From Verrucomicrobiota bacterium (lineage in GTDB: Bacteria; Verrucomicrobiota; Verrucomicrobiia; Limisphaerales; UBA11358), in contig JAJPJM010000141.1 in the NCBI GenBank assembly GCA_021324235.1, forward strand, positions 1 through 38,826: a stretch of 38,826 bases of DNA. The letters are read 5' to 3'. Below the pieces are notes generated by a model. That model worked only from the letters and a program-made list of their open reading frames with translations, did no database searches and was not told where the DNA came from. Both the position numbers and the translations under genes were made by a program. Of this stretch, positions 448 through 38,012 are shown one piece after another. Every line of letters starts with the position of its first letter. Position 1 is the stretch's first letter.

Positions 448-1422
448 TCACCCGCCGATGGCGGTCATGGGGCGGCAGGGCTGATAGTTGGTGCGGAACT
501 GATGTTCCAGCGGTTTCAATCTGAGCGCCGTTTCCAGCAATTCCTTCAACGCGCCGTCGTCCGCGCCATGCCGCAGCGCCGCGCGCAGGTCCACCTCGAT
601 GTGATTGCCGAGACAGGGACGCACCTTGCCGTCGGCCGTGAGCCGCATCTTGTTGCACTGTTCGCAGAAATGCTCGTTCGTCAACGCGCCGATGAAACCG
701 ACGAGCGCGCCGGTTTGTTTCAATAGATAATACTTTGCCGGGCCGTGGCCGAGTTTGCGGTCGGGTTGCGGAACCAGTTCGTCCCGTTGCGCCAGCGACT
801 GCATCGCTTCGCCGCAGGGCAGGAAATTTTTTTCGGTCAGAACCTCGGTGGACGTGAGCGGCATCAGCTCGATGAACCGCAATGGCAGGCCATGTTCGGC
901 GGCGAACAAAACCAGCGGCCAGAGTTCCGTCTCATTGACGCCGCGCATCAGCACGCAATTCAGTTTCACGCGTTCGAATTCTGCCACGATCGCCGCCTGG
1001 ATGCCGGCCAGGACCTTGGCCACGTCTCCCCCGGTGATGCGCCGGTAAATTTGCGGATCCAAGGCGTCCAGGCTTACGTTCACCGTGCGCAGACCGGCTG
1101 CGCGCAGCGGTTGCGCCAGCGCGGCCAGCCGCAGACCGTTGGTGGAAAGACCGACCGATTCGACCCCGGGAATTTTGGCCATGGCGCGGGCGATGTCGGG
1201 AAGGTCGCCACGCACGAGCGGTTCGCCGCCAGTCAGCCGGAATTTGCGAAAGCCCAGCCCCGCCGCCACGCGCGCCACCCGGATGATTTCCTCCGCCGTC
1301 AGGTGGTCCGGATTGCTTTCCCAGCCCTTGTACCCTTCCGGCATGCAATAGAGGCAACGCTCGTTGCACCGGTCGGTGACCGAGATTCGCAGATAATCAA
1401 TTTGTCGTCCAAACGGATCCAT
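448..1422 (-). CDS. moaA: GTP 3',8-cyclase MoaA (radical SAM)
   Basis: First step of molybdenum cofactor synthesis: radical-SAM rearrangement of GTP to 3',8-cyclo-GTP. The SAM-cluster cysteines are C19, C23 and C26 (CNERCLYC). The second cluster is C253, C256 and C270 in FCEQCNKMRLTADGKVRPCL, and the chain ends in the GG typical of MoaA. The glycine-rich LTGGEPLVRGDL motif is present. The 324-aa length is normal. I chose the ATG at 1420-1422, which lies 1 nt after the mog stop; the longer frame adds 17 residues overlapping mog. It is the last gene of the molybdenum run, tightly coupled to mog. Confidence 0.97.
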   Translation of the reverse strand: MDPFGRQIDYLRISVTDRCNERCLYCMPEGYKGWESNPDHLTAEEIIRVARVAAGLGFRKFRLTGGEPLVRGDLPDIARAMAKIPGVESVGLSTNGLRLAALAQPLRAAGLRTVNVSLDALDPQIYRRITGGDVAKVLAGIQAAIVAEFERVKLNCVLMRGVNETELWPLVLFAAEHGLPLRFIELMPLTSTEVLTEKNFLPCGEAMQSLAQRDELVPQPDRKLGHGPAKYYLLKQTGALVGFIGALTNEHFCEQCNKMRLTADGKVRPCLGNHIEVDLRAALRHGADDGALKELLETALRLKPLEHQFRTNYQPCRPMTAIGG

Positions 1423-1423
1423 T

Positions 1424-1912
1424 TTATTTCCGCCCGTGCGGGTCTTCGCCGCACAAATGAGCCAGCCCTTCACGGATGGCCGGTGCGAGTATTTCCAGGC
1501 ATTCGCGCACCGCCGAGGGTTTGCCGGGCAGGTTCACCATCAGACACGCGCCGCGCGTCCCCGCCACCGCGCGCGACAAAACCGAGGTTCGCACTTTGGC
1601 AAACGATTGGGCGCGCATGATCTCGCCAAACCCGGGCAATTCCTTTTCCAGCACCGCCCGGGTCGCCTCCGGCGTCACGTCGCGCGGTGAAATGCCCGTG
1701 CCCCCCGTCGTCACCACCATATCGCATTTCAGCTCATCTGCAAATTTTCTCAGCGCTGCGGAAATCAAGGGTTGCTCGTCCGGCACGATGAGCGATTCGA
1801 ATTGCGCGCCGCCGAGAAATTCCCGCAACACGTTTTCAATCTCCGGCCCGCTGCGGTCTTCGTAGATGCCCGCCGAGGCGCGGTCGCTGACGGTGAGGCG
1901 GCCGATTTTCAT
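1424..1912 (-). CDS. mog: Molybdopterin adenylyltransferase, MogA/MoaB family
   Basis: 162 aa. It adenylates molybdopterin to prepare it for metal insertion by MoeA. The sequence follows MogA: MKIGRLTVSDRASAGIYEDR at the N-terminus, TTGGTGISPRDVTPEA in the nucleotide-binding loop, LPGFGEIMR, SVLSRAVAGTRG and NLPGKPSAVRECLE. The frame is open far upstream, but the start is the ATG at 1910-1912, which overlaps the moaC TGA as ATGA and implies translational coupling. It resembles MogA more than MoaB through the SDRAS.G.Y.D start and the LSR...R segment. Confidence 0.92.
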   Translation of the reverse strand: MKIGRLTVSDRASAGIYEDRSGPEIENVLREFLGGAQFESLIVPDEQPLISAALRKFADELKCDMVVTTGGTGISPRDVTPEATRAVLEKELPGFGEIMRAQSFAKVRTSVLSRAVAGTRGACLMVNLPGKPSAVRECLEILAPAIREGLAHLCGEDPHGRK

Positions 1913-2358
1913 TCCTTGATTTTCTCCACGACCCGGATGCCCTCGATCCGCATTTTTTTGTCCACGGCCTTGCACATGTCGTAAAGCGCCAACGCCGCCA
2001 CGCTCACACCGGTCAGCGCCTCCAATTCCACGCCGGTTTGCGAACTGGTTTCCGCGGTGCAACGGACCTCGATGGCCGCGCGCCGGATTTTGAAACGGAT
2101 TTCGATGTGGTTCAAGGCCAGCGGATGGCAAAGGGGAATCAACTGGGCCGTCCGTTTGGCGGCCTGGATGCCGGCAATCTGGGCCACGGTCAAAACATCG
2201 CCCTTTGGCAGCGCGTTTTTTTTGAGCGCGCGAATCGTGGCCGGGGCGCAAACCAGCTTCCCTTCCGCCACCGCGCGCCGGCGCTGAACCGGTTTGTGGC
2301 CGACGTTGACCATGCGCGCGCCGCCGCGCGCATCCAGATGCGAAAACATTTTGTTCAT
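1909..2358 (-). CDS. moaC: Cyclic pyranopterin monophosphate synthase MoaC
   Basis: Converts the MoaA product 3',8-cyclo-GTP to cyclic pyranopterin monophosphate. Family signatures are clear: KGDVLTVAQIAGIQAAKRT, LIPLCHPLALNHIEI, GVELEALTGVSVAALALYDM and CKAVDKKMRI. The last two carry the Asp and Lys known to be catalytic in MoaC. With the ATG at 2356-2358 it is 149 aa and begins 1 nt after the moaE-moeA stop; the longer frame would overlap moeA by 49 nt. It overlaps mog by 4 nt. Normal length and no missing motif. Confidence 0.96.
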   Translation of the reverse strand: MNKMFSHLDARGGARMVNVGHKPVQRRRAVAEGKLVCAPATIRALKKNALPKGDVLTVAQIAGIQAAKRTAQLIPLCHPLALNHIEIRFKIRRAAIEVRCTAETSSQTGVELEALTGVSVAALALYDMCKAVDKKMRIEGIRVVEKIKE

Positions 2359-2359
2359 C

Positions 2360-4048
2360 TCAATCGGTTGATAAGAATTCAACTTCGCCGCCCGCTTCGA
2401 TTGAACCACGATCCGCCGGAATCCGGATCAAGGCGTTCGCTTCCGTCAGACAGGTCACGTCGCCGGAACTTGCCCACGCCAGCGGATGCAGACCGGTCGG
2501 TTCCCGGCGCGCCGGCCAGAGCGTTTCGCGCGGACACGGCGCGTCGTCCAATTTTGCCCCGAGCCGGCCGCGCCGGAACTTTACCGGTTCCGCGCCGGTG
2601 AGTTTCGCCAGAGTTGCGGCGACAAACAAATGAAAACAGACAAAATGCGACAGCGGGTTGCCCGGCAAGCCAAACGCCACACGGACTTTATCGGGTGGGG
2701 CGAGGCTACCGACGAGCCGGCTCGCGGGGACGCTCGCCCCACCAGCGATTCCAAAAATAAGAGGCCGGCCGGGGCGCACGTTGACTTGTGAAAAGACGAT
2801 TTCAAATCCAAGCCATTCGAGCAGCGGACGGGTGAAATCCCGGTCACCCACGCTCGCGCCGCCAGAAACCAGCAACACATCCGAATTACCGATTGCCGAT
2901 TGCTGATTGCCGATTTGCTCCTTCGCAAGATCAAAATCTTCCGGCAGATGAGCTTGTTCTGTCTCACACGCAAAGCGCCGCAACAGGCTGTGAATCAAAA
3001 TCGAATTACTGTCGCGAACCTGTCCCGGTCGGGGGGTATGCTCCGGTGACACAATTTCGTCGCCGGTGGTGAAATGAACGACACGCAGGCGCGGGCTGAC
3101 GAGCGGCTGAGTACAGCCGGCGGACGCAAGCAGGGCCAGTCTGCCCGCATTCAGATGCGCACCGGCCGGCACCAGCGGCTGTCCGGCCTTTACGTCTTCG
3201 CCGCGTTGGCGGAGGTTCAGGGCCGACTCGTGTTTTGTGATCCGGATTCGGTCGCCGTCACGTTCTACGTGTTCCTGTATTACCACGCGCAGATTTTCGC
3301 ACGGTAGCGCCGCGCCGGTGGCAACGCGCACGGTTTCGCCGGATTTGAGCTGGCACGGTTTCCAATCGGCGGCATGAAGGGTGTCCACGACCCGGAAGCT
3401 TTCAGACGCATCGTTTTGCCGAATGGCATAGCCGTCACGGGTGGAACGATCGCGATCCGGCAAATCCGACGGCGCGCAGACGGTCTCGCGCAATACGCGG
3501 CCAAACGCCTCGGCCAGGGGCGCACGGATGGCAGGCAACGGCCGGCAGCACGACTGGATTTCTGCAAGGGCTTCGTTGACCGACAAAATGTTTTGTGGCC
3601 GCCGATGTGAATCAGCGGATGCACCGGGCCCGGAAGTCCGCAAATTTGCATTTGCGGCCACCGGCGGTAACGCTCGCCGTTTCCAAATCGGCACGTCTTG
3701 TTTGAGGCGGTCCATGAATCCGGCCAACAGGGCGATGGCTTCGCCGCGGTGCGGGGACGCCACGCCGACGTAAATCGCCGTGTCACCGACCGGAATGACG
3801 CCGACGCGATGGATTACTTTCGCGGCGAGGCACGGAAATTTTGTGCCGAGCGATTCGAGGATGCGCCGGATTTCGCCCGTGGCCATCTCCGGGTAGGCCT
3901 CGTATTCGAGCGCGGAAATATTTCCGCCGTTTTCCTCGCCTCGAACGACACCGCGAAATTCCAGCCAGGCGCCGTGCGCGCCCAGTGACGGCGGCGGAGA
4001 AATGGTTTCCGCAATGGGGTCAGGTGTGAGCTGGATTTCGATTTCCAT
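2360..4048 (-). CDS. moaE-moeA: MoaE-MoeA fusion: molybdopterin synthase large subunit joined to molybdenum insertase
   Basis: 562 aa with two enzymes in one chain. Residues 1-130 are MoaE: FRGVVRGEENGG, ALEYEAYPEMA, and LKQDVPIWKRR with the two lysines (K116, K123) that match the MoaE active site. Residues 131-152 are a linker. Residues 153-562 are MoeA: DRSTRDGYA (200-208), GETVRVATGAALP, TTGDEIV, RDSNS, SGGASVGDRD (395-404), RPGRPLIFG and GLPGNPLS (460-465). MoaE with MoaD sulfurates the pterin; MoeA inserts molybdate after Mog adenylation. Two in-frame insertions unlike MoeA elsewhere are seen: residues 379-389 (tandem 7-mers) and 435-454 (a palindromic repeat). moaD ends 11 nt upstream. 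Confidence 0.95.
   Translation of the reverse strand: MEIEIQLTPDPIAETISPPPSLGAHGAWLEFRGVVRGEENGGNISALEYEAYPEMATGEIRRILESLGTKFPCLAAKVIHRVGVIPVGDTAIYVGVASPHRGEAIALLAGFMDRLKQDVPIWKRRALPPVAANANLRTSGPGASADSHRRPQNILSVNEALAEIQSCCRPLPAIRAPLAEAFGRVLRETVCAPSDLPDRDRSTRDGYAIRQNDASESFRVVDTLHAADWKPCQLKSGETVRVATGAALPCENLRVVIQEHVERDGDRIRITKHESALNLRQRGEDVKAGQPLVPAGAHLNAGRLALLASAGCTQPLVSPRLRVVHFTTGDEIVSPEHTPRPGQVRDSNSILIHSLLRRFACETEQAHLPEDFDLAKEQIGNQQSAIGNSDVLLVSGGASVGDRDFTRPLLEWLGFEIVFSQVNVRPGRPLIFGIAGGASVPASRLVGSLAPPDKVRVAFGLPGNPLSHFVCFHLFVAATLAKLTGAEPVKFRRGRLGAKLDDAPCPRETLWPARREPTGLHPLAWASSGDVTCLTEANALIRIPADRGSIEAGGEVEFLSTD
2694..2743. repeat. Palindromic repeat inserted in frame within moaE-moeA
   Basis: Two 25-bp arms abut with no spacer. 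The left arm starts GGTGGGGCGAG and ends CGAGCC; the reverse complement of the right arm has the same start and end, and 20 of 25 positions match. Read on the minus strand it encodes GGASVPASRLVGSLAPP between RPGRPLIFG and the GLPGNP motif, where MoeA proteins normally have only a few residues. The same family appears at 31020-31091. Confidence 0.8.
2885..2912. repeat. Tandem 7-mer repeat (ATTGCCG x4) inside moaE-moeA
   Basis: Four consecutive 7-mers read ATTACCG, ATTGCCG, ATTGCTG, ATTGCCG. On the coding strand they give IGNQQSAIGNS, placed just before the MoeA SGG motif. It looks like an expanded low-complexity insertion that kept the reading frame. Confidence 0.8.
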
Positions 4049-4059
4049 ACCAAAGAGTT

Positions 4060-4299
4060 TCAGCCTCCGGACACGGGCGGAATGAGTGCGATTTCGTCAT
4101 CCGATGCAAAAACGGTGTCAGGCCCGGCATACTCGCAATGGTTGGCGAGCCGGACACTGGAGCGATGGGCGGCAAGCTCCGGAAATTGCTTCAGTAATTC
4201 CGTCCACAACTGATGCGCAGTCAACGGCGCCGGCGACAGGATTTCGACCGAATCGCAACCGGTGACGTCTTTGAGTTGGGCGAAAAACAGGACGCGCAT
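4060..4299 (-). CDS. moaD: Molybdopterin synthase small subunit MoaD
   Basis: 79-aa ubiquitin-fold sulfur carrier. It begins MRVLFFAQLKDVTG and ends PPVSGG; the C-terminal Gly-Gly is the residue pair that is adenylated and thiocarboxylated. It partners with the MoaE half of the fusion encoded 11 nt downstream. The length is normal. No moeB-type activating enzyme is visible in the window, so activation must be done by a protein encoded elsewhere. Confidence 0.95.
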   Translation of the reverse strand: MRVLFFAQLKDVTGCDSVEILSPAPLTAHQLWTELLKQFPELAAHRSSVRLANHCEYAGPDTVFASDDEIALIPPVSGG

Positions 4300-4320
4300 G
4301 GAATTTCTTTAACAGTAGTT

Positions 4321-5391
4321 TCAGCGTGGCACAAGGTGGACGGCGGGCGCCTTGATGAAGGCGGTGATGGCTTTACCATCATGCAACGCGAGTTCGGCGC
4401 TCGCGGCGCGGGTGACCAGCGCGAATAACGGGAATCCGGCGTCCAATTCCACGCGCACCAGAGCGCCTTCCGGATGAAGCGAGACCACGCGGGCGGGGAG
4501 ACGGTTGCGGACACTGCTGGTGGTGACGGTATCATGCTGGAGGACCACGTCCTCGCCGCGGATACAGACAAACACTTCGCGCGATGCGGTTGGGGGTGCA
4601 AGCGCGGTGAGCGTGACCCGATTGACGCTCACGGTGGCGAGTCCTTCGTTTATGTTCATAATGCTGCCGGGCTGGAGGGTTTCGACGGCGACCAGCCGGG
4701 CGACCTCGGCGCTGGCCGGGCGGGTGAAAACTTCCGACACGGGACCGGTTTGCCTGACCTGCCCGTCCACCAGCACGACGATTTCGTCCGCCAGCGCGAG
4801 CGCTTCAAAGCGGTCGTGGGTCACGCACAGCATCGGAATCCGGAACTCGTCACGGACCCGGGCCAGGTAGGGGATGATTTTCGCCTTCAACGACGCGTCA
4901 AGGCTGGCCAGCGGTTCATCGAGCAACAACAGGCGCGGCGATGCCAGCAGGGCGCGCGCGAGGGCGACGCGCTGTTTTTCGCCACCGGAAAGTTCCGTCA
5001 CGCCGCGCGAAATCAGCGGCTGGATTTCCAGAACTTCAGCCACGTGATCGAAGCGGAACGACGGATCGTTCGCGCCACCGGATTTACAGCCGTAAAGCAG
5101 GTTCCGGCGCACCGAGAGATGTGGAAACAGCGCGAGGTCCTGCGGCACGTAACCGATGCCACGTTGGTATGTGGGCACGAAGATTTTTTGGGTCGTGTCG
5201 GTAAGCGTGCGGTCGTCGAGTTGAATGAAGGCGGAACGCGCGGCGCGCAGTCCGGCGATGAGATCGAGCAGCGACGTTTTGCCCGAGCCGGAGGGGCCAA
5301 AAACAGCGGTCACATGCCGATGCATTTCGACATCCACTTCGAGTGTGAAATCAGCCAGCGACAGTGAAATGTTTTTCAACAGCAGGCTCAT
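4321..5391 (-). CDS. modC: Molybdate ABC transporter ATP-binding protein ModC
   Basis: 356 aa. ABC ATPase domain at residues 1-230: Walker A GPSGSGKT (32-39), signature LSGGEKQRVALARALL, Walker B LLLLDEPLASLD and switch His in CVTHD. The C-terminal region from about residue 285 resembles the TOBE/Mop oxyanion-binding domain of ModC (VNRVTLTAL, VCIRGEDVVL, NRLPARVVSLHPEGALVRVELD). The ATG at 5389-5391 is 1 nt after the modB stop; the longer open frame overlaps modB and is not used. It energises molybdate import with ModA and ModB. Confidence 0.95.
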   Translation of the reverse strand: MSLLLKNISLSLADFTLEVDVEMHRHVTAVFGPSGSGKTSLLDLIAGLRAARSAFIQLDDRTLTDTTQKIFVPTYQRGIGYVPQDLALFPHLSVRRNLLYGCKSGGANDPSFRFDHVAEVLEIQPLISRGVTELSGGEKQRVALARALLASPRLLLLDEPLASLDASLKAKIIPYLARVRDEFRIPMLCVTHDRFEALALADEIVVLVDGQVRQTGPVSEVFTRPASAEVARLVAVETLQPGSIMNINEGLATVSVNRVTLTALAPPTASREVFVCIRGEDVVLQHDTVTTSSVRNRLPARVVSLHPEGALVRVELDAGFPLFALVTRAASAELALHDGKAITAFIKAPAVHLVPR

Positions 5392-5392
5392 G

Positions 5393-6058
5393 TCATTTTT
5401 TGCGGCGCAGGAAAAATTCGCTGCACCACACGGCGGTGAAGGCAAGGACGACCGATACTCCCAGCAGGCGGTAGGCGTGCGTGTCCTCGCCGATTTGCAC
5501 GTTTTCGAAAATGGCGAGCGAGAGTGTCGAGGTCTTGCCTGGAATATTGCCGGCGACCATGATCGTGGCGCCAAATTCGCCGAGTGCGCGGGCGAATGCG
5601 AGCAACATTCCGCTGATGACGCCGCGTGCGGCCAGCAGGAGAGTGATGGTAAAAAACACGCGCAGACCGCTGGCGCCGAGGGTGCGGGCGATTTGTTCCA
5701 GGCGCGGGTTGACTTCTTCGAACGCCACGCGCGCGGCGCGGACCAGCAGCGGCATCGACATGACGCTCAGTGCCAGCAGAACGGCGCGCCAGGTAAAGAT
5801 GACATCCAGATTGAGCTGGTTGTGGAGGAAGCCGCCAATGACGCCACGTCGGCCAAAAAGCTTCAGCAGAATCAAACCCGTGGCCACCGGCGGCATGACC
5901 AGCGGCAGCGTAACGAAGGTTTCCACGATGGATTTGCCCGGCCAGTCGCGCCGGGCCAGCGCCCACGCCAGCGCGAGGCCGAACGGCAGAATGATCACCG
6001 TGCTCAACGCGGATACCCACGCGGTGAACCAGACAATCTGCCATTCTTCAGCGGTCAT
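5393..6058 (-). CDS. modB: Molybdate ABC transporter permease ModB
   Basis: 221-aa inner-membrane permease with about five hydrophobic segments. The EAA loop that docks onto the ATPase is ARTLGASGLRVFFTITLLLA. It contains LPLVMPPVATGLILL and RALGEFGATIMVAGNIPGKT, both typical of ModB/CysTW permeases. Its ATG overlaps the modA stop as ATGA (6055-6058) and its stop lies 1 nt from the modC start. Confidence 0.96.
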   Translation of the reverse strand: MTAEEWQIVWFTAWVSALSTVIILPFGLALAWALARRDWPGKSIVETFVTLPLVMPPVATGLILLKLFGRRGVIGGFLHNQLNLDVIFTWRAVLLALSVMSMPLLVRAARVAFEEVNPRLEQIARTLGASGLRVFFTITLLLAARGVISGMLLAFARALGEFGATIMVAGNIPGKTSTLSLAIFENVQIGEDTHAYRLLGVSVVLAFTAVWCSEFFLRRKK

Positions 6059-6813
6059 TCACGCAAGAGGAAGCCAAATCGGGTGAAGACCTGTCCAGCT
6101 TCTTCGGACGAAAGGTAATCCAGGAATTTTTTCGCGGCTTCGGGTTGCTTTGAATTTCTTACCAGCGCCATGGGATAGCTGATGTCGGGGGCATCCGCGC
6201 GCGGGACCTCGTAGGCGACTTTGACATTTTTGGAAATGGCGGCGTCGGTTTTGTAGACCACACCCAATTCGACGTTGCCGGACGCCACGGCGGCGAGGGC
6301 GGCGCGGACATTTTCCGTCGGAATCACTTTCGGCTCAATGGCCGGCCAAAGTTGCTGCCGGGTCAGCCAGCCTTTGGCATAAACCCCCGCCGGCACGGAC
6401 TTGGGATCGGCCAGGGCGATTTGTTTCACACCGGCGTTGGTGAGGTCGCTGGCGGATTTGATTTGCAGTGTACTGGTGCTCGGAACCACGACGACAAGCG
6501 AGTTGCCGAGACGGCTTTTGCGCGTAGCCGGGTCGATCAACCCCTTTTTCTCCAGCCGGTTCATTTGCGTTTCATCGGCGGAAAAGAAAAGGTCGGCGGG
6601 CCCGCCTTCCTCAATCTGCCGCGCCAGGGTGCTGGAGGCGGCGAAATTAAAGACGACTTTGTCGCCGGACTGTTTTTCGTAAGCGGCGGCGATTTCCTTC
6701 AATGAATCCGTCAGACTCGCGGCGGCGAAGACGGTTACTTCCTCCGCGCAAACAGGCGACGCCAGGGCCGGCAGCAGGAGACATGCGGCGAGGAAGAGAA
6801 TTTGTTTTTTCAT
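6055..6813 (-). CDS. modA: Molybdate-binding periplasmic protein ModA
   Basis: 252 aa with a signal peptide, probably cleaved after ASPVCA (residue 23). The mature protein follows ModA: VTVFAAASLTDSLKEIA, NFAASSTLARQIEEGGPADLFFSAD, and GVVYKTDA with the late Tyr that contacts the oxyanion in known ModA structures. It delivers molybdate (possibly tungstate) to ModBC. It overlaps modB by 4 nt and starts 36 nt after the upstream secreted-protein gene, the widest gap in the run but still consistent with one transcript. Confidence 0.95.
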   Translation of the reverse strand: MKKQILFLAACLLLPALASPVCAEEVTVFAAASLTDSLKEIAAAYEKQSGDKVVFNFAASSTLARQIEEGGPADLFFSADETQMNRLEKKGLIDPATRKSRLGNSLVVVVPSTSTLQIKSASDLTNAGVKQIALADPKSVPAGVYAKGWLTRQQLWPAIEPKVIPTENVRAALAAVASGNVELGVVYKTDAAISKNVKVAYEVPRADAPDISYPMALVRNSKQPEAAKKFLDYLSSEEAGQVFTRFGFLLRE

Positions 6814-6849
6814 GCTGTTTTTTCAGTGTCAGTTTTTGGTTGGGGAAAT

Positions 6850-7788
6850 TCAACGGGAAAGCCGGTAGAACCGTTGGGAATTGGTCGCGGTGATGTCGTC
6901 AAACTGAATCATACCTACACCGTCCGCGGTCACCGTTCCAATCGTTTGCCAGTTGGTCATTGTCAAACTGGAGCTGGCCTGGACCTGGTATTGCAAATTC
7001 GTTCCGCCGATGCCGGTGAGGTGGAAAAGGCCGTTGGTGAAATAACCTGAAAGAATTTTAAGCTGCACCGCTTTGAGCGCGGCCGTGATATTAATCAGTG
7101 GTTCATTGCCGCGCCCGTAGTTTTGAGAATTGAACAGGTATCCAATCTGGTTGTCGGCCGCATGGAAAAGAAGCGTGACATCGCCGCCGTCCGCCACATC
7201 GGAAACGAGGTTGGTATTGAGTGGCAACGCATAAGTCACCGGCACATTATTGCCGGGCGGCGTGTAGGTGTTCGTGCAAAGGATTTCATGCGCGCCAGAC
7301 AGCAAAACGGGAAGTGAATCGTAGGTAACTCCGTCGGTTGTGGGTAAATTGGGGGTTCCGGTTCCCTCCACCCAATCATCGTCAGACAACCATTCGATGA
7401 TAAAATTCCCGCTGCTAATCATGGGGAAAATCGCATTGTTCGGCTGCACCCCGTTTGTCCCGTAGTTACTGGTCAATGCGATTGAAATGCCGGTGATTGT
7501 CCAGTTCCCCGCGCCATAGTTCGTATTGAACATGGCAACCGCGTTTGAAAGGCTGAATTTGAGCACACTCTGAAATTCTCCTTTTACCGATGCCGCCGGA
7601 GCGACAACCAGGGTGCCCGCCGCGCCAAAGTTCAATCCCGTCAAGTCACTGCCTTCCGGGTTGTTCGACGAACCCGTTGCGAGGAAGGCATCAGCGGAAG
7701 TTGTTCCGGTGTAAGTGACCTGCGCCTTGGTGATTGAACCAAGGCGCAGCAGCGCGATTACGAAAACGATTACCCGGCAGCGGTTCAT
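6850..7788 (-). CDS. Secreted protein, paralogue of the upstream PEP-CTERM protein, with VQAS...FYR C-terminal module
   Basis: 312 aa from the ATG at 7786-7788, which overlaps the upstream TGA as ATGA and has GGA at good spacing; another ATG lies 9 nt upstream. It has a signal peptide ending about SITKAQ. Residues 20-235 closely match the upstream protein: GEFQSVLKFS, FNTNYGAGNWTITG, DDDWVEG, YTPPGNN, LVSDVADGG and YLFNS, a DNRLRE-like beta-rich domain by my reading. The C-terminus, LQYQVQASSSLTMTNWQTIGT to RFYRLSR, is the module seen on many verrucomicrobial secreted proteins and replaces the PEP-CTERM signal. Function unknown. It lies between the PEP-CTERM gene and modA. Confidence 0.85.
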   Translation of the reverse strand: MNRCRVIVFVIALLRLGSITKAQVTYTGTTSADAFLATGSSNNPEGSDLTGLNFGAAGTLVVAPAASVKGEFQSVLKFSLSNAVAMFNTNYGAGNWTITGISIALTSNYGTNGVQPNNAIFPMISSGNFIIEWLSDDDWVEGTGTPNLPTTDGVTYDSLPVLLSGAHEILCTNTYTPPGNNVPVTYALPLNTNLVSDVADGGDVTLLFHAADNQIGYLFNSQNYGRGNEPLINITAALKAVQLKILSGYFTNGLFHLTGIGGTNLQYQVQASSSLTMTNWQTIGTVTADGVGMIQFDDITATNSQRFYRLSR

Positions 7789-8561
7789 TTTTTCCATTTC
7801 TGTCTGAACGAAAACAGAAAGCCGCCAAGTGATGCCGCCAGTAACGCAGCGCTGGTCGGTTCTGGAACCGGAGTCGCCGTGATAGTAAGTTCAGGGTGGT
7901 TTGATGCGAACTCCTTGGAATTGAATAGATAGCTGACCTGAGTATCCGCCGCGTAAAAATAAAGTGAGACCGCGCCGCCCGCTGCGGCATCGGACACGAG
8001 GCCGGCATCAAGCGGCAGCGAGTAACTGGCGTAAACGTTGTTGCCCGGTGGGGTGTAGAGATACGTGCCAAGCGAATCAGAGCCGGCCGAGAACAAAGTG
8101 GAAATCGAATTGAAACTCACGGCCCCATTGGCCACGCCCATGCCACCGCCATTACCTTCCACCCAACTGTCATAGGACAGCCAGTCAATGCCGAAATTGC
8201 CTCCGCTGACGGTGTTAAGCAAATTGTTGTTGGGAATGGCGCCGTTGGCGCCGAAATTACTGGCCAGTGATAACGTAAAGCCGGTGATTGCCCAATTTCC
8301 CGCACCGTAGGTCGTGTTGAATTGGCTGACCGCGCCTGCGGTATTGAACATAATCACGCTGTCAAATTCGCCTTTGGCCGAAGATGCGGGGGCAATGGCC
8401 AGCGTTCCCGCACCGCCGAAGTTCAAAGTTGGTGAAGCCCCCGATAGAAGCGCGTCGGCAGTGGTGTTGTTGATAGTGTATATCGCTGCTTTGCCGGTGG
8501 AAGGCAGGATGAAAAACATGCCGCAGGCCGCGGCGAACAATAAACTTTGTGCTGGTTTCAT
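7785..8561 (-). CDS. PEP-CTERM sorted exported protein, DNRLRE-like
   Basis: 258 aa with a signal peptide (about residues 1-25, ending TGKAA). The C-terminus VPEPTSAALLAASLGGFLFSFRQKWKK is a textbook PEP-CTERM signal: VPEP, a membrane segment and a basic tail, processed by exosortase in species that have it. No exosortase gene is in the window. The body is beta-rich (GEFDSVIMFN, FNTTYGAGNWAITG, YDSWVEG, YTPPGNN, YLFNS) and is paralogous to the next gene. It starts 22 nt after the TupA-like gene, so it sits inside the molybdenum run. Binding partner and role are unknown. Confidence 0.88.
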   Translation of the reverse strand: MKPAQSLLFAAACGMFFILPSTGKAAIYTINNTTADALLSGASPTLNFGGAGTLAIAPASSAKGEFDSVIMFNTAGAVSQFNTTYGAGNWAITGFTLSLASNFGANGAIPNNNLLNTVSGGNFGIDWLSYDSWVEGNGGGMGVANGAVSFNSISTLFSAGSDSLGTYLYTPPGNNVYASYSLPLDAGLVSDAAAGGAVSLYFYAADTQVSYLFNSKEFASNHPELTITATPVPEPTSAALLAASLGGFLFSFRQKWKK

Positions 8562-8583
8562 GGTATTTGATTTATTTCGGGAT

Positions 8584-9423
8584 TTATTCGTGAGTAGTGG
8601 CTACCGGAAAAAAGATCGGCCCCGGCCCGTTGGTTTGGGTGCCAAATTCGAGCAGGAAATTCTGCACCTTGTCGGAAAGCAGAAAGTCGGACAATGCGCG
8701 TGCGCCGGCATGATTGGCAGTGGGAAATTTCTTTGGATTCGTCTCCATGACGATGAAGGGCCGCCGCATGACCGGGTCGCCTTTGACCAGGATTTCCATC
8801 CCTTCCGCGTACATCTTGCCCAGGTGCGCGGGGATGTAACCCACCACCACATAGGCATCGTTGGTGCGCGCAAATTGCAGGATGTTCCACCGGGAGACCG
8901 TGCCATCCTTGAGCATCCAATCGCCTCTGGGTTCGGTATCCGCCAGCCGCCACAGGGTATGCACCAGTTCGCGACTGCCGATGCCTTCAAAATCCACAAA
9001 ACGGGCATGCGCTTCGGCAATTTTCCGTAATGCGGCGGCGCCGTTGGTCATGCCCCGGATGTGCGCCGGGTCGTCGGGCGGGCCGACAATGCATAACTCA
9101 TTGCGTGTCCACGGACGCATATTGACGCCATATCCGTCAGCAACAAGATCGGTGGTGATGTCGCCTGAGTGCATGGTGAGCAGATCCACTTTTCCCGCGC
9201 GCATGGCGGCATCAAGGATGGGACGCGGCCCGGTCGCCACGACTTCAATCCGATAACCCGTTTGCGCCTCAAACATTTTGGAGATCTCCTGCCACAAACC
9301 CGTCATGGTCATGCCGCCAATAACGGCGCAACGGACAACGTGACGGTCCATGGGCGTTACAACGTTGCGGCGACACGACACGGCCAGCATTACCAACAGG
9401 GCAAAATAGAAGCTTCTTTTCAT
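8584..9423 (-). CDS. TupA-like oxyanion-binding lipoprotein
   Basis: 279 aa. The N-terminus has a lipobox-like AVSC with Cys17, so it is probably lipid-anchored. The body resembles the tungstate/molybdate-binding TupA-type fold: LWQEISKMFEAQTGYRIEVVATGP, VDLLTMHSGDITTDLVADGYG, NELCIVGPPDDPAHI, an ALRKIAEAHARFV region, then ELVHTLWRLADTEPRGDWM. TupA proteins feed TupBC or WtpBC permeases, but no second permease is present, so it may serve ModBC or act as a scavenger. It starts 14 nt after the pseudopilin stop. The ligand could also be phosphate or sulfate; tungstate or molybdate is inferred from context and motifs. Confidence 0.75.
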   Translation of the reverse strand: MKRSFYFALLVMLAVSCRRNVVTPMDRHVVRCAVIGGMTMTGLWQEISKMFEAQTGYRIEVVATGPRPILDAAMRAGKVDLLTMHSGDITTDLVADGYGVNMRPWTRNELCIVGPPDDPAHIRGMTNGAAALRKIAEAHARFVDFEGIGSRELVHTLWRLADTEPRGDWMLKDGTVSRWNILQFARTNDAYVVVGYIPAHLGKMYAEGMEILVKGDPVMRRPFIVMETNPKKFPTANHAGARALSDFLLSDKVQNFLLEFGTQTNGPGPIFFPVATTHE

Positions 9424-9437
9424 TGTCCCAGGCGGCG

Positions 9438-10127
9438 CTAATAATTATGGGCGGTGACATCGCTGGCGGTGCCGGTGAGCCAGCGTACGTCGGCAAGTTT
9501 CGGGTCCCCGACGCCGCAGCCCACATAAGAACCGGCGAAGGATTGCACCTGACCGGCCAGGAACAGCAGATTAATTCGTCCGGCATGGCGGGCCACCATG
9601 CTGTAAGGCTGGACGGATGGATAAGTTGAAGCATAAGGCCCCGGCGCATCGGCCATCGCCACGACATAATTCGGCTGAATCACCATGTCGAACTTTGTGG
9701 CCAGCGGCAGGTTCCACGGCGAAAGATTCATGTTCATGCCATACGGCAAAAAGTAGGTTCCACCCGGATTATTGGCGGTTGGGCAGATAAAGACGGATTG
9801 AGTATGGGCAATGGGCCTTGTGCTGTTGGTGACCATGGCTTGAAAAGAGGGAAGACCAAAATAAACCGGCAAGGCATTGAACCAATCATCCGGCCGGTCA
9901 ATCACCGCCAGCGTTTGAACCCCCTGCCCGCGGCGCGGAAGGAAGTTGTTGTGATCGTCGGCGTACATCCGGTAAGCCAATCCCCACTGATGAAGGTTGC
10001 CTGCGCACTGGGTCGAGCGCGCCCTTTCTTTGGCTTGCGCCAGCGCTGGCAGGAGCATGGCTGCGAGGATCGCGACAATGGCGATGACGACGAGCAGTTC
10101 GATGAGCGTGAAACCCCATCTCCTCAT
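9438..10127 (-). CDS. Type II/IV pseudopilin-like protein (prepilin N-terminus)
   Basis: 229 aa from the ATG at 10125-10127 (a GTG at 10143-10145 would add 6 residues). The leader is MRRWG, with cleavage expected before [24 protein letters not shown], giving Phe+1 and Glu+5 as in class III prepilins. [34 protein letters not shown] follows, the standard start of the large verrucomicrobial/planctomycete pseudopilin family. The tail contains [19 protein letters not shown], a degenerate version of the family's H-X9-DG motif. It is the first gene after the ModE-type operator, which is an odd place for a pilin-like protein. Confidence 0.85.
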
Positions 10128-10147
10128 GCGGCCTAACAAAGCCACAT

Positions 10148-10173
10148 CCGTTATACTTTGTCAAGTATAACGG
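10148..10173. promoter_or_regulatory. ModE-type operator palindrome
   Basis: A perfect inverted repeat: 10-bp arms CGTTATACTT and AAGTATAACG around a 4-bp TGTC spacer, plus one more C/G pair outside. Known ModE operators, including the E. coli modA site as I recall it, have the same CGTTAT...ATAACG ends and a 24-bp core. On the minus strand TATACT (10164-10169) is a good -10 match inside the palindrome, so binding would block the promoter; the -35 match is poor. It lies 21 nt upstream of the pseudopilin ATG. Confidence 0.8.
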
Positions 10174-10218: not shown

Positions 10219-10578
10219 TCAATCGCGCAAAAGCTTTCGCAACGCTTTCCAGTCCGTCCGGATAATTTTAAGACTGTTCATTTCCATGTGCCGATACAGA
10301 CCCAGCACGCGCCGCCCGGTTTCCGTCAATTCCGCGCCGCCCCGCTTCCGACCGCCGCGCACCGCCTTGATGACCGGTTGTTTGAAACACGCGTTCATGG
10401 TCTGGATGAGCGACCAGGCGCGCATATAAGACATGCCCATGCGTTTGGCCGCCCTGCCAATCGAGCCGGTCTCCGCCACCAGCGCCAGTAATTCCGCTTT
10501 ATCCGGGCCAAAGGCGACCGCTTTGCCGGTTACAATGCGCAGCCGGGGAACCAGGAAAGGCGTGGGTTGGGATTTCAT
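10219..10578 (-). CDS. Single-domain ModE-like winged-helix regulator
   Basis: 119 aa. It matches the N-terminal DNA-binding domain of ModE: ELLALVAETGSIGRAAKRMGMSYMRAWSLIQTMN, then VIKAVRGGRKRGGAELTETGRRVLGLYRHME. It lacks the two C-terminal Mop/molybdate-binding domains of E. coli ModE, so how it senses metal is not visible. The start is the ATG at 10576-10578; the longer open frame adds 41 residues with no family match. It ends 46 nt before the ModE-type operator, which it presumably binds, and is divergent from the MOSC gene at 10731. Confidence 0.88.
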   Translation of the reverse strand: MKSQPTPFLVPRLRIVTGKAVAFGPDKAELLALVAETGSIGRAAKRMGMSYMRAWSLIQTMNACFKQPVIKAVRGGRKRGGAELTETGRRVLGLYRHMEMNSLKIIRTDWKALRKLLRD

Positions 10579-10730
10579 TTTGTCATCGCCCCCGGGTAAA
10601 ATTCCATCGGTGCCTACCCTGAAGCATTCCTGGGAACGGTCTGTTAATTCCGGTAAAGGCACAAGTCGCGATTTTTTTAAAAATGGATTGCCGCGTAACA
10701 AGCGGCTGCGTTATTGGTCTGGGGCTGCGA

Positions 10731-11501
10731 ATGCAACTCGGCCAAATCATCATTTTTCCCATCAAGTCTCTGGACGGTGTCCCGGTGGAAACCGCCCGCA
10801 TTACCGGCGGCGGCATCCTGGAGCACGACCGCAGCTATGCGATTTACGATGCGGACGGAAAAGTGGTCAATGGGAAACGCACGCCACGCGTTCATGAGTT
10901 GCGTTGCCAGTTCGACGCCAGGATCGCCGAGGTCCGCCTGTGGCCCAACGGCGAATCGTCGTCGGCACAGTTTCAACTGGATGATCCGGTTTGCATCGGT
11001 CAATGGTTGAGCGATTTTTTCGGTTTTGCCGTTGCCTTGCGGCATGAACCGCACAGCGGGTTCCCCGACGATCGCACGGCTTTTGGGCCAACGATTACGA
11101 GCGAGGCCAGCCTCCGCACCATTCAAGGCTGGTTTCCACAAATGACGCTCGAAAGTGTGCGCCGTCGTTTTCGGACGAATCTGGAACTGACTGGTGGCGA
11201 GCCATTTGGCGAAGATCACCTGTTCGGCGCACCGGACGAACTGAAGCCATTCCAGGTCGGTTTGGTGAAATTTTTTGGCCACAACCCCTGCCAGCGATGT
11301 GTCGTCCCCACGCGCGATCCGGACTCCGGACAAGCCACCGGTGATTTTCAGAAAAAGTTCATGGAGCTGCGGAAGCGGCTTCTTCCCGAATGGGCGAATG
11401 CACAGCGCTTCAATCATTTTTACCGGTTCACGGTGAACACTTCCATCCCGCCGACCGAAGCGGGAAAACAATTGAGCCTCGGCGACCCGTTGGTGTTTTG
11501 A
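10731..11501 (+). CDS. MOSC domain protein (N-terminal MOSC barrel plus MOSC)
   Basis: 256 aa from the ATG at 10731, after TGGGG; an upstream ATG at 10683 would add 16 unlikely residues. N-terminal part: QIIIFPIKSLDGVPVETARITGGGILEHDRSYAI, the MOSC_N barrel. C-terminal MOSC part: FRTNLELTGGEPFGEDHL and GHNPCQRCVVPTRDPDSG with the conserved Cys pair. MOSC proteins bind molybdenum cofactor (mARC, YcbX, YiiM), reducing N-hydroxylated compounds or carrying sulfur. Divergent from the ModE-like gene, it fits the molybdenum theme as a likely Moco user. Substrate unknown. Confidence 0.9.
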   Translation: MQLGQIIIFPIKSLDGVPVETARITGGGILEHDRSYAIYDADGKVVNGKRTPRVHELRCQFDARIAEVRLWPNGESSSAQFQLDDPVCIGQWLSDFFGFAVALRHEPHSGFPDDRTAFGPTITSEASLRTIQGWFPQMTLESVRRRFRTNLELTGGEPFGEDHLFGAPDELKPFQVGLVKFFGHNPCQRCVVPTRDPDSGQATGDFQKKFMELRKRLLPEWANAQRFNHFYRFTVNTSIPPTEAGKQLSLGDPLVF

Positions 11502-12397: not shown

Positions 12398-13795
12398 ATG
12401 AACAAGTTGCGTTCCAATTGTTTGAACTTCATGGAATTACTGGCGCAAAATATTGCGCTCATTTCGCCGACGATGACGGCGGCGTTGATTGTGCCGCTGA
12501 TGTTTGCCACCACCGGCAACCTCAGCTGGTTGTCCTATGCCGTGGGCACGGTCATGCTGTTGTTCGTCGCATTCAGCCTGAACCAGTTCGCCAAGCGCAC
12601 GACGATGGCCGGTTCGATGTACAACTATGCCTCGTCCGGCCTGGGTTTCACCGGCGGTGCACTCTGCGGCTGGTGTCTGGTATGGGCGTATCTGTTCATC
12701 GGTCTGGCGGGGACAACGGGCTTTACGATTTTCGCCGGCAAATTACTGGCGGCGATCCACATCAGCCTCCCGCCCGTGATTCTTTTTGCGGTCTGTTTGG
12801 GCACCTGTTTTTTCATGGCCTACAAGGACATCAGAATTTCAACGCTGATCATGCTGGGCTTTGAAGCGTTCTCGTGCTTCTTTATTTTGTTGCTGGTTGG
12901 CATCGTATTGGGACATCACCATTTTGCCATCGACACGACCCAGTTCAGTTTCAAGGGCGCGTCCATGTTGAGCCTGGGCATGGGTGTGGTGGTGGCCATC
13001 TTCAGTCTGGTTGGATTTGAAAGTTCCACCGCCTTTGGCGAGGAGGCGGTCAATCCACTTAAAACCATTCCGCGCTCCATCATCTGGAGTCTGCTGTTGA
13101 CGGGTGCGTTCTTTATTCTGGTCAGCTATACGGAAGTGCTGGGCACGCGCGGCTATTCGACCACCCTGGACCAGATCGACGCGCCACTGAATGTTCTGGC
13201 CACCATGTATCATGTGCCCTACCTGTGGCCGCTGCTTTCGGCAGGCGCCATGTTCAGTTTTTTTGCGCTGGCTTCCTCCTGCATGAACGCCGGAGCCCGG
13301 GTGATGTTCGCCATGGGGCGTCACGAGTTCTTTCACAAATCCACAAGCACTGCGCATCAGAACCATGGGACGCCGCATGTGGCGCTGGCCACGATGGCGG
13401 TGGTTATGTTCAGTGTGGTAACGGTGAGTTATTATGTACTGGTTGATAATGGCATGGCTGTGCTCGACGAATTCAACGATGCCGGCACGATGGGCGCCTT
13501 TGGCTTTCTCGGCGCTTACATTCTCATTACGCTTGCCGCGCCCGCTTTTCTCAAGAAACGGGGCGAACTCATGGCCAGGGACATCGTTATGTGCGTGGCT
13601 GCCATGGTATTGTTGCTGGTGCCCGCGATTGGCAGTGTTTATCCGGTGCCAGCCCCGCCGGTTAATGCATTTCCCTACGTTTTTGCCGCCTACTTGTTCA
13701 TCGGTTATGTGAGAATCATGGCGATGCAACATCAGAAGCCACAGCGGGTCGAGGAAATCAGCCTCGAAATCAAAAAAGTCGCCCAACCCGCATGA
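12398..13795 (+). CDS. APC-superfamily amino acid/amine permease
   Basis: 465-aa integral membrane protein with about 12 hydrophobic helices. The N-terminal region LAQNIALISPTMTAALIVPLMF and the TM6 region GMGVVVAIFSLVGFESSTAFGEEAVNPLKTIPRSI are typical of APC amino acid transporters. A clear AAGGAG site is at 12385-12390. It follows the XRE-cupin gene by 15 nt and overlaps the next MOSC gene by 4 nt (ATGA). The substrate cannot be read from the sequence; a nitrogen compound later handled by a Moco enzyme is a possible link. Confidence 0.9.
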   Translation: MNKLRSNCLNFMELLAQNIALISPTMTAALIVPLMFATTGNLSWLSYAVGTVMLLFVAFSLNQFAKRTTMAGSMYNYASSGLGFTGGALCGWCLVWAYLFIGLAGTTGFTIFAGKLLAAIHISLPPVILFAVCLGTCFFMAYKDIRISTLIMLGFEAFSCFFILLLVGIVLGHHHFAIDTTQFSFKGASMLSLGMGVVVAIFSLVGFESSTAFGEEAVNPLKTIPRSIIWSLLLTGAFFILVSYTEVLGTRGYSTTLDQIDAPLNVLATMYHVPYLWPLLSAGAMFSFFALASSCMNAGARVMFAMGRHEFFHKSTSTAHQNHGTPHVALATMAVVMFSVVTVSYYVLVDNGMAVLDEFNDAGTMGAFGFLGAYILITLAAPAFLKKRGELMARDIVMCVAAMVLLLVPAIGSVYPVPAPPVNAFPYVFAAYLFIGYVRIMAMQHQKPQRVEEISLEIKKVAQPA

Positions 13796-14616
13796 GCAGC
13801 CCAATCGGCGTGATCGCGGCGATTCACCGCTATCCGGTCAAATCCATGATGGGCGAGGAATTGAACGCCGCGCAGATTGGGGCCAAGGGTGTGCTGGGCG
13901 ACCGGGCGTTTTCCGTGGCCGACCCGGCGACGGGGAAGATCGCCAGTGCGAAAAACCCCTCCAAATGGCCGGCGCTGTTTTCCTTCCGGGCAACATTCAC
14001 GCAACCGCCGGAGGAATCCACCGCGTTGCCGCCGGCGCGAATCACGTTTCCGGACGGGAGCAGCATGTCCACGGGTGACAAAGGTATTGAGGCAAAATTA
14101 TCGTCCAGCCTGGGCAAGCCGGTCCGGTTTTTGTCCGGCGCCCCACCGGCCGGCATGCTGGAGGAATACTGGCCGGATATGGATGGTCTGGCGCGACGCG
14201 ACGTTGTCACCGAAGAAGCGATGCCGGCCGGGACTTTTTTCGACTGTGCCGTCATCCATTTTCTCACCACGGCAACGCTCGACAGCCTGCGCGGGTTTTA
14301 TCCCGAAGGCCGGTTTGAATCGCGCCGCTTTCGCCCGAACCTCGTCATTGAAACCCCGCCCGGCGTCAAAGGGTTTCCGGAAAACGACGAATGGAATGAA
14401 AAAGTTGTGGCCATCGGGAGCGAAGTGAAGCTGAAAATCACCGGTCCCTGTGGCCGCTGTGTGATGACCACCCTGCCCCAGGGTGACGTGCCCCGGGACA
14501 TTGGCATTTTGAAAACCGCGGCCAGGCACAACCAGGCGCGCGTCGGCGCTTACGCGTCGGTGGTGCAGGGCGGCATGGTCCGCCGGGGCGATTCGGCACG
14601 GATTGAACCGGCTTGA
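13792..14616 (+). CDS. MOSC domain protein, second copy
   Basis: 274 aa. It begins IGVIAAIHRYPVKSMMGEELNAAQIG (MOSC_N) and carries the MOSC core FRPNLVIETPP, WNEKVVAIGSEVKLKITGPCGRCVMTTLPQG with the conserved Cys. Its ATG overlaps the permease stop, so the two proteins are made together. It is diverged from the MOSC protein at 10731 and is probably not a recent duplicate. Likely a Moco-dependent reductase or Moco-binding protein. A small hairpin (GGTTCG/CGAACC) lies at 14618-14634 just after the stop, without a T-run. Confidence 0.9.
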   Translation: MSSPIGVIAAIHRYPVKSMMGEELNAAQIGAKGVLGDRAFSVADPATGKIASAKNPSKWPALFSFRATFTQPPEESTALPPARITFPDGSSMSTGDKGIEAKLSSSLGKPVRFLSGAPPAGMLEEYWPDMDGLARRDVVTEEAMPAGTFFDCAVIHFLTTATLDSLRGFYPEGRFESRRFRPNLVIETPPGVKGFPENDEWNEKVVAIGSEVKLKITGPCGRCVMTTLPQGDVPRDIGILKTAARHNQARVGAYASVVQGGMVRRGDSARIEPA

Positions 14617-37032: not shown

Positions 37033-38012
37033 CCGGCGGCTTTATTTTCCATGGCAGGGGCGCGCGGCCTGCGCGTCCGGGCGGGACAGCCCGGCGAGCC
37101 TTTTCCCCTCCAGAGCAACCGGGTGGCTGCCATTCCAAGTGCCATCAGGATTATGCCCGAAGGCTCCGGTACACTTACGATCATGAAGGACGGATCAGTC
37201 TGCTGAGCGAACAATGAAATTGTCCCGTCAGGTGCGACTTTCCAGATACTGTCACGCAGATTTGAAACATAAAGGTTGTTCTGACTGTCAATGGCCAGGC
37301 CGCGCGTCGTCGTGGTTTGTGGTGAGTCAAAAGCAAAGTTGGCGAACATCAAATCGGTGCCCGTGGCGGTCAGTTCTTCAACCCCTTCCGGGCTGGATAC
37401 GAACATATTTCCGTAAGTGTCGAACACGAGACCGCCGGGCAAACCGGCGTTCATCAGTTGAGCCACCTGCGTTGCGTTGCCGGAAGCATCGTACTTCATC
37501 ACGGTTCCGTCGATATTCACGCAGTAGAGATTTCCATCATGGAACGCAAGCGGGCTGGGTTGCGGCCCGGCATTCGCAAAAAAGGAAACGTTACCACCGG
37601 GAGTGATCTCCTGAATGATCCCGCTAGTCCTGCTGGAAACGAACAGATTTCCGCCGGTTCCGAACGCGAGGCCATAGGGGTCGGCCAGCCCTGAATTCGC
37701 GTCTGCAAAAACCGTGGAATTGCCCGACGGACCAATCTTCAAGATCACCTGGTCCGCGTTGAAAGCGGGATGGTAGGCCACATACAAGTTCCCGCTGTTA
37801 TCGAATGCCAGTCCTCGCGGGACAGTATCCTGTGGTTGCCCTGGTGTCGCGAATATTGCCGGCGCACCGCCGCCACCGGGAAGCGCATAGGAAGTAATCG
37901 GCGTGTTCACGCCTTGTTCCCCAACGAAAAGAACCTGTGCGGCAGCGCCGCTGATGCCGATCCAGAGCAAGGTTATGGTGACCGTGATAAACAGGCGAAA
38001 GTGGGTTTTCAT
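37008..38012 (-). CDS. PEP-CTERM beta-propeller (NHL/SMP-30-like) protein
   Basis: 334 aa. Signal peptide about 1-25 (MKTHFRLFITVTITLLWIGISGAAAQ). Blades repeat patterns such as PRGLAFDNSGNLYVA, DPYGLAFGTGGNLFVSS, PGGLVFDTYGNMFVSS and RGLAIDSQNNLYVSN, typical of NHL-type propellers. The PEP-CTERM is VPEPSGIILMALGMAATRLLWR, followed by an unusual 30-residue tail rich in Pro, Arg and Gly that runs into the end of the convergent gene. The usual short basic tail would end about 30 codons earlier, so the original stop may have been lost. Confidence 0.85.
   Translation of the reverse strand: MKTHFRLFITVTITLLWIGISGAAAQVLFVGEQGVNTPITSYALPGGGGAPAIFATPGQPQDTVPRGLAFDNSGNLYVAYHPAFNADQVILKIGPSGNSTVFADANSGLADPYGLAFGTGGNLFVSSRTSGIIQEITPGGNVSFFANAGPQPSPLAFHDGNLYCVNIDGTVMKYDASGNATQVAQLMNAGLPGGLVFDTYGNMFVSSPEGVEELTATGTDLMFANFAFDSPQTTTTRGLAIDSQNNLYVSNLRDSIWKVAPDGTISLFAQQTDPSFMIVSVPEPSGIILMALGMAATRLLWRGKGSPGCPARTRRPRAPAMENKAAGHGPSRMR

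Follow-up and report, generated by a model that had tools for sequence, protein, structure and literature searches.

What are a pilin-like protein and secreted surface proteins doing at the head of an operon for molybdate uptake and molybdenum cofactor (Moco) synthesis? The question is raised by the DNA analysed here (the window), the 38,826-nt contig JAJPJM010000141.1, which is one whole contig of the 3.09-Mb, 185-contig draft genome of a Verrucomicrobiota bacterium (GCA_021324235.1; G000, the source genome). In the ModABC, TupABC and WtpABC importers the first component is a binding protein, periplasmic or lipid-anchored, and to our knowledge the passage of scarce oxyanions across the outer cell layers to that protein is little described. 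In the window, 12 minus-strand open reading frames (ORFs), each running from an ATG to a stop, span 10127 down to 448 in the order pilin, TupA-like lipoprotein, PEP1, its paralogue PEP2, modA, modB, modC, moaD, moaE-moeA, moaC, mogA and moaA, with successive gaps of 14, 22, -4, 36, -4, 1, 21, 11, 1, -4 and 1 nt. The 12-gene run with gaps of 36 nt or less or overlaps, claimed in a preliminary description of this DNA, is real, the measured values lying between -4 and +36 nt, and modA, modB and modC all exceed their curated NCBIfam cut-offs, which identifies them as ModABC. The first four genes, called the cassette below, make up an envelope module that is optional and patchy in its distribution; here it stands between a ModE-type operator and modABC, and what we found in the sequences suggests an undescribed cell-surface helper for the scavenging of molybdenum (Mo) or tungsten (W).

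The TupA-like gene was sought in 49 genomes of the genus (source included), 245 of the order and 387 of the phylum. It was present in 6 of the 49 genus genomes, once as a fragment; 8 of the 245 order genomes matched, three already known from the genus and five new ones contributing six loci; and the phylum sample yielded the source genome alone (1/387), so the cassette is patchy. Cassette counts leave out G005 (a TupA-like fragment, 113/279 residues) and L060 (gene cut by a contig end). A pilin gene and DNRLRE-type genes, the kind to which PEP1 and PEP2 belong, adjoin the TupA-like gene at all 11 full-length Verrucomicrobiota loci (10 genomes), every one of them found through the TupA-like gene; eight loci have two DNRLRE genes, and L071, L073 and L074 have one. 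On a 286-kb contig, G025 repeats the order ModE, operator, pilin, TupA-like, PEP1, PEP2, modA, modB, modC, with its Moco genes on the opposite strand from the cassette and modABC, and G043 has a PBP_like regulator followed by PEP1, PEP2, pilin, TupA-like, modA, modB and modC. The cassette occurs in three orders: pilin-TupA-PEP1-PEP2, PEP1-PEP2-pilin-TupA and pilin-DNRLRE-TupA. Conservation of the gene order across Verrucomicrobiota, which the preliminary description had proposed as a check, is thus borne out in part: G025 repeats the order, and nine further loci have the unit with either one or two DNRLRE genes, but the order is not fixed. modA lies within the same fetched stretch at 6 of the 11 loci, while in G023 and G048 the four cassette genes and modA are on different contigs. 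In addition, identities of the TupA-like proteins and of the pilins correlate across loci (r 0.91 for 16 loci, 0.74 for the 11 Verrucomicrobiota loci), and for neither set did any of 10,000 permutations equal the correlation, the related rows not being independent of each other.

The operon begins at a ModE-type operator, as the preliminary description had it. The arms of this palindrome (10148-10158 and 10163-10173) match each other perfectly, and its core, CGTTATA-N10-TATAACG at 10149, fits CGNTATA-N10-TATANCG with 0 mismatches, which is the core and spacing to which the published Escherichia coli ModE consensus ATCGNTATATA-N6-TATATANCGAT (PMC545781, excerpt) reduces. It is the sole site with fewer than three mismatches to CGTTATAC-N8-GTATAACG in the 3.09-Mb draft. 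Comparable operators precede mod operons and cassettes in relatives. Among loci picked for their genes and not for sites, six sites with at most 2/14 mismatches were found in 369 kb (22 loci), all of them before a cassette or TupA-like gene at a distance of up to about 180 bp; simulation gave 0.33 sites on average. A search with the published 12-base core (at most one mismatch) gave nine sites in 526 kb (35 loci), and all nine lie before a mod operon or a cassette gene; ten first-order simulations of this search gave 0 sites in eight and 1 in two. Other spacings (8, 9, 11 and 12), tried over 8 loci, added a single two-mismatch site, in L058, away from the cassette.

Regulator genes of two types adjoin the cassette in Verrucomicrobiota, ModE at 3 of the 11 loci (the window, L015 and L075) and an HTH-PBP_like regulator at seven (L017, L018, L070, L071, L072, L073 and L074). 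The best NCBIfam match of the latter type is a molybdopterin biosynthesis protein (90.6 and 244.4 bits, below the cut-off of 534), and the inverted repeats before the PBP_like regulators vary from locus to locus. The PBP_like regulator gene of the G043 cassette (L018:13429-14592) is interrupted by an in-frame stop; this may be a sequencing error, or the regulator may be inactive. The best NCBIfam model for the window ModE-type protein is TIGR00637 ModE_repress (76.1 bits, under the cut-off of 98.5); the protein is the DNA-binding half alone, with a helix-turn-helix (HTH) domain and no TOBE domain, both molybdate-binding domains of ModE being missing. With this half absent, a second sensor for Mo may be needed; ModE genes with HTH only have been described in Desulfovibrio, where the same puzzle was raised (PMC545781, excerpt).

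A scan of genome contigs with the window TupA-like protein gave six loci: two in Verrucomicrobiota (L055 and L059, from Verrucomicrobia subdivision 3 / Verrucomicrobiia metagenome bins), one in Planctomycetota (Sedimentisphaerales), two in Thermodesulfobacteriota/-bacteriales and one under a Deltaproteobacteria title with the gene cut at the contig end. At E up to 1e-3, 1,975 proteins scored as homologues of the TupA-like protein, some of which may lie outside its subfamily. The second phylum is Planctomycetota by its named record, and in the class of that genome 6 of 298 genomes, that genome included, have the TupA-like gene. At the six second-phylum loci the pilin adjoins at five and DNRLRE at five, and a Mo-type regulator gene is present at two. 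L092 runs ModE, operator-like site, pilin, DNRLRE, TupA-like; in L094 a divergent PBP_like regulator is followed by pilin, DNRLRE with PEP-CTERM, and TupA-like. At L091 a ThiF/MoeB-family gene stands before the pilin and no DNRLRE gene was found; L093, which starts inside the TupA-like gene with its upstream side unseen, has an operator-like site before the DNRLRE gene. The claim that the surface genes form a conserved unit linked with Mo/W control is supported by these results, since relatives and a second phylum both have the unit and most copies have ModE or PBP_like genes or operators beside them. The Planctomycetota cassette of L056 is preceded by an Nramp-family transporter gene (L056:6748-8040).

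No pilin or DNRLRE gene was found at the four Thermodesulfobacteriota/Deltaproteobacteria loci (L057, L058, L060 and L095). Their neighbours include TonB-dependent receptors (two; near the TupA-like gene at L057 and L058), PBP_like regulators (two) and a FecCD-type transporter (one), and one of the four loci has FmdE together with a molybdopterin-binding-domain gene. The class sample of 17 genomes reported alongside the Thermodesulfobacteriota loci holds the TupA-like gene in two. The gene after the TupA-like gene encodes a secreted propeller-like protein at L058:10807-12156 and at L095:9081-10424, with a PBP_like regulator beside it.

The place before modA gives a further view of the cassette. 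ModA was found in 18 of the 49 genus genomes, weakly in G045, and the surroundings of modA were seen for 17 of the 18. The cassette precedes modA in 3 of these 17 (G000, G025 and G043), with the TupA-like fragment in G005. A different pilin takes this place in three others (G018, G032 and G020), directly behind ModE and the operator in G018 and G032; compared with the first of the three, these second pilins show 77-84% identity, and they align with the cassette pilin over an N-terminal stretch of 62 residues only. In G010 a Porin_O_P protein, possibly an outer-membrane molybdate porin, occupies the slot. G021, G019 and G013 carry a secreted-looking protein there, possibly a beta-barrel as judged by eye only, and the operator was seen in two of these loci (L100 and L101). 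Envelope genes recur in this one slot, and one of them belongs to a known family of anion porins; nothing else hints so strongly at the purpose of the cassette.

The same comparison removes the idea of the 12 genes as one old, fixed operon. G009, whose ModA is closest to that of the source (75%), has ModE, a perfect operator, modABC, moaD, moaE-moeA, moaC, mogA and moaA with no cassette, and G018 and G021 likewise lack it next to their ModE, operator, mod and Moco genes; the opposite strand of the G025 Moco genes tells the same way. The cassette accordingly stands on its own and is no fixed part of the molybdate operon, a change to the preliminary reading, given the cassette-free operon of G009 and the separate contigs in G023 and G048. 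ORFs of similar length at the position of moaE-moeA in G009, G018, G021 and G014 suggest the fusion there, Pfam-confirmed in G014 alone.

Searching from PEP1 instead, we found relatives in 8 of the 49 genus genomes, among them relatives of 31-40% identity in G014 (two loci), G015 and G016, which all have no TupA-like match. One of the G014 loci (L109, contig C202; 765-5399) runs pilin, DNRLRE, TauE/SafE permease, moaD, moaE-moeA and moaC up to the contig end. The permease belongs to the TauE/SafE anion permease family (109.7 bits, cut-off 32.6), its pilin and the cassette pilin share 44% identity over 212 residues, and neither a TupA-like gene nor modABC was found on this 5.4-kb contig. Pilin and DNRLRE thus accompany Moco genes without the TupA-like gene, another transporter replacing ModABC, which makes L109 a candidate for an alternative molybdate importer arrangement.

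The window pilin has the prepilin N-terminal methylation motif and is 63-74% identical to the pilins at nine other Verrucomicrobiota loci and 43% identical to the L056 pilin by alignment. Since the source genome has 27 N_methyl matches, a single pilin neighbour means little, and it is the conservation that counts as strong evidence. A T2SSE-family ATPase is encoded at 33205-34461 on the same contig; it indicates machinery, not assembly of the cassette pilin. PEP1 scored under threshold against both DNRLRE (25.9 bits, cut-off 34) and CBM96 (21.2 bits, cut-off 26), and homologues at L056 (CBM96 40.2) and L094 (DNRLRE 62.5) are over the cut-offs. The preliminary description named a PEP-CTERM protein and its paralogue. 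PEP1 does carry PEP-CTERM by TIGR02595, its score with the Pfam model being 18.1, below 20.7, whereas PEP2 showed no PEP-CTERM signal and no Pfam or NCBIfam match. An exosortase is present in the source genome (133.5 bits) and in 16 of 16 cassette genomes versus 1 of 14 control genomes. Structure models give the window TupA-like protein the two-lobed TupA fold and the DNRLRE proteins a beta-sandwich, whose fold matches include modules that bind chondroitin sulfate or alginate, in VIA-align lists restricted to chains ranked high by Foldseek. Within the TupA-like family, motifs of its own (VIGGMT, TMHSGDITT and MRRP) show tight conservation.

Taken as a whole, these observations are best explained by a Mo/W scavenging accessory that acts at the surface and in the periplasm, outside the inner membrane, a function that we infer with about even confidence. 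Scarcity of molybdate would lead ModE, or the HTH-PBP_like regulator in relatives, to permit expression of the cassette. The dedicated pseudopilin would join the type II secretion or type IV pilus machinery of the cell and help to bring the CBM96-type beta-sandwich proteins to the surface or present them there; the PEP-CTERM protein, processed by the exosortase, would sit in or on extracellular polysaccharide; and the TupA-like lipoprotein would collect the Mo/W species concentrated there and hand them on to ModABC or another importer. Display with the help of the pseudopilin, anchoring in polysaccharide and hand-over to ModABC are less certain than the accessory role itself. A more far-reaching version of the proposal, which we consider unlikely, is a pilus-assisted acquisition system at the surface: the dedicated pseudopilin would move or display beta-sandwich proteins that bind polysaccharide and concentrate Mo/W outside the cell, and a lipoprotein of TupA fold, its pocket remodelled, would take up a chelated or polymeric form not directly accessible to ModABC and TupABC.

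A number of observations weigh against a scavenging role. The TupA-like gene had no match in 43 of the 49 genus genomes, and in the phylum sample only the source genome had one. No modA was in the fetched stretch at 5 of the 11 Verrucomicrobiota loci (one being a 4.4-kb contig), a number of cassettes are remote from any transporter that was seen, and the slot before modA was empty or unrecognised in 6 of the 17 surroundings (G009, G003, G022, G038, G023 and G048). L016 has no adjoining regulator and a decayed operator (3/14 mismatches), L056 and L090 showed no Mo link, and around the DNRLRE gene of L110, L111 and L112 we found neither a Mo gene nor a regulator, operator or pilin. The count of 11 out of 11 describes the company kept by the gene through which the loci were found, not a need of the other genes for it. 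The beta-sandwich proteins look like binders of carbohydrate, and this likeness gives no hint of metals. Of the tungstate pocket described for TupA, with the TTTS motif, R118, D170, H59 and T124 (PMC5517513, excerpt), the TupA-like protein has VIGG for TTTS, a deletion or F145 for R118 and G195 for D170; T124 is replaced by S150, and H59 is kept as H85. With most of the published pocket residues lost, simple capture of oxyanions by this protein, in line with the apparatus suggested in the preliminary description, stays conjectural, and the loss of TTTS and R118 means that its ligand is probably not bare tungstate held in the TupA manner.

A plain TupABC reading was rejected on these absent pocket motifs and on the TupA equivalog model NF041772 (cut-off 400), which gave 50.2 bits for the window protein and 41.9 for that of L017. 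The TupA-like protein might be no tungstate protein at all and bind a different ligand, such as chelated or polymeric Mo/W or another anion, with the control reflecting a Mo/W-dependent process; the other residues at the pocket positions and the family's own motifs favour this, as does the TonB-dependent receptor near the TupA-like gene at two of the four Thermodesulfobacteriota/Deltaproteobacteria loci. TonB-dependent receptors normally transport larger complexes. We regard such a ligand as rather unlikely. The proteins could alternatively serve adhesion or the matrix and take no part in metal uptake, their genes only sharing the control of Mo operons or having settled in them, as the fold matches to polysaccharide-binding modules, the abundance of pilins in the genome, the readiness with which this lineage inserts genes between operator and modA, and the DNRLRE relatives at the three loci with no Mo gene found nearby would allow; yet Mo-type regulators or operators stay where modABC is not adjacent (L017, L070, L074, L075, L092 and L094), and in G014 the pilin and DNRLRE precede Moco genes even without a TupA-like gene, so that this explanation appears quite improbable.

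A sensing device, in which the TupA-like and surface proteins report Mo/W rather than deliver it, would suit the two regulator types that adjoin cassettes and the several cassettes without a neighbouring permease. It fits poorly with modA in the same stretch at 6 of the 11 Verrucomicrobiota loci, and the clusters showed no obvious transmembrane signalling protein, though no search was aimed at one; we consider it very improbable. That the genes are chance neighbours in a draft metagenome bin of 185 contigs has next to no probability: the eight-gene order from ModE to ModC returns on the 286-kb contig of G025, the unit returns at the nine further Verrucomicrobiota loci, and for the unit itself this conservation refutes a chance neighbourhood.

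The features of the operon, and those standing before modA in relatives, are collected in Table 1. The ATG at 10127 is the likelier start of the pilin than the GTG at 10145, as an equivalent start is kept in L015 (by eye). The preliminary description had named a separate promoter before modA as evidence against its reading; a minus-strand scan from the operator to modA gave no promoter-like site, this being a weak scan, with promoter and terminator counts close to those of shuffled sequence. A Moco riboswitch was sought in six sources, and none attained the gathering score. Near the operon are two MOSC-domain proteins (10683-11501, divergent from modE, and 13666-14613), and a PEP-CTERM beta-propeller protein is encoded at 37011-38027 on the same contig.

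Table 1. Positions of the operon features in the window and of genes preceding modA at other loci.
Feature	Position	Strand	Placement	Match or remark
ModE-type DNA-binding protein (119 aa)	10219..10578	-	same strand as operon, upstream of it	HTH_1 34.1 bits (cut-off 26.6)
ModE-type operator, 26-bp palindrome	10148..10173		between ModE-type gene and pilin	11-nt arms, 4-nt centre
Dedicated pilin/pseudopilin	9438..10127	-		N_methyl PF07963 34.0 bits (cut-off 21.2), DUF1559 29.4 bits
TupA-like lipoprotein	8584..9423	-		SBP_bac_11; lipobox LAVSC (by eye)
PEP1, secreted DNRLRE/CBM96-like protein with PEP-CTERM	7785..8561	-		TIGR02595 21.6 bits (cut-off 16)
PEP2, PEP1 paralogue without PEP-CTERM	6850..7788	-		extra C-terminal beta domain
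modA	6055..6813	-		TIGR01256 214 bits (cut-off 62.5)
modB	5393..6058	-		TIGR02141 213.5 bits (cut-off 182.6)
modC with TOBE domain	4321..5391	-		TIGR02142 332.2 bits (cut-off 285.05)
moaD	4060..4299	-		ThiS PF02597 46.1 bits
moaE-moeA fusion	2360..4048	-		MoaE, MoeA_N, MoCF_biosynth and MoeA_C in one 562-aa ORF
moaC	1909..2358	-		TIGR00581 175 bits (cut-off 141.5)
mogA (molybdopterin adenylyltransferase type)	1424..1912	-		NF006932 182.1 bits (cut-off 158)
moaA	448..1422	-		TIGR02666 340 bits (cut-off 284.05)
Second pilin family	L096:6938-7735, L097:7233-8027, L098:5478-6317		first gene before modA	
Porin_O_P (G010)	L103:4829-6247		between PBP_like regulator (and another ORF) and modABC	81.2 bits (cut-off 20.9)
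Secreted-looking proteins	L100:5788-6726, L101:2602-3627, L106:8044-9075		before modA	no Pfam match

Among known systems, the cassette is close in design to ZepA, a Zur-controlled PEP-CTERM exoprotein that mediates zinc uptake (PMC10957091, excerpt). Both are under a metal regulator, extracellular with PEP-CTERM, patchy across distant phyla including the PVC superphylum, and near metal genes, which for ZepA are ZnuA, ZupT, TonB-dependent transporters and a FUR-family regulator gene. The likeness is one of architecture and control only, with Mo/W and ModE or PBP_like regulators here in place of zinc and Zur, and the cassette has a pilin, of which the excerpted text of PMC10957091 makes no mention for ZepA. 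With TupA of TupABC the TupA-like protein shares the modelled two-lobed fold; it differs in the pocket residues TTTS, R118 and D170 (PMC5517513, excerpt), in scoring 50 against the cut-off of 400, and in having modABC-type genes or no transporter beside it. The window operon is like ModABC under ModE in its mod genes and its E. coli-type operator core, and unlike it in a ModE without the molybdate-binding half and in the four envelope genes placed first. The phosphate-selective porin O/P family (PF07396) occupies the equivalent place before modA in G010; it is a single outer membrane porin by family, and the cassette is not homologous to it as far as seen. The DNRLRE proteins are predicted to share the beta-sandwich fold of the CBM96 alginate-binding module, which, unlike them, belongs to an alginate lyase and has a lysine-rich groove (PMC9971899, excerpt). 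No Mo/W counterpart of a PEP-CTERM/pilin/DNRLRE cassette was found among the papers listed from the open-licence literature, judged partly by titles.

A regulator-linked surface cassette in two phyla, together with a porin, two kinds of pilin and this cassette in one slot before modA, makes passage across the outer layers testable with few genes. If the scavenging role is true, the idea drawn from ZepA, that metal-controlled exoproteins act as uptake factors, would extend from zinc to Mo/W, and a function would be given to some of the many pseudopilins and PEP-CTERM proteins that are orphans in Verrucomicrobiota and Planctomycetota.

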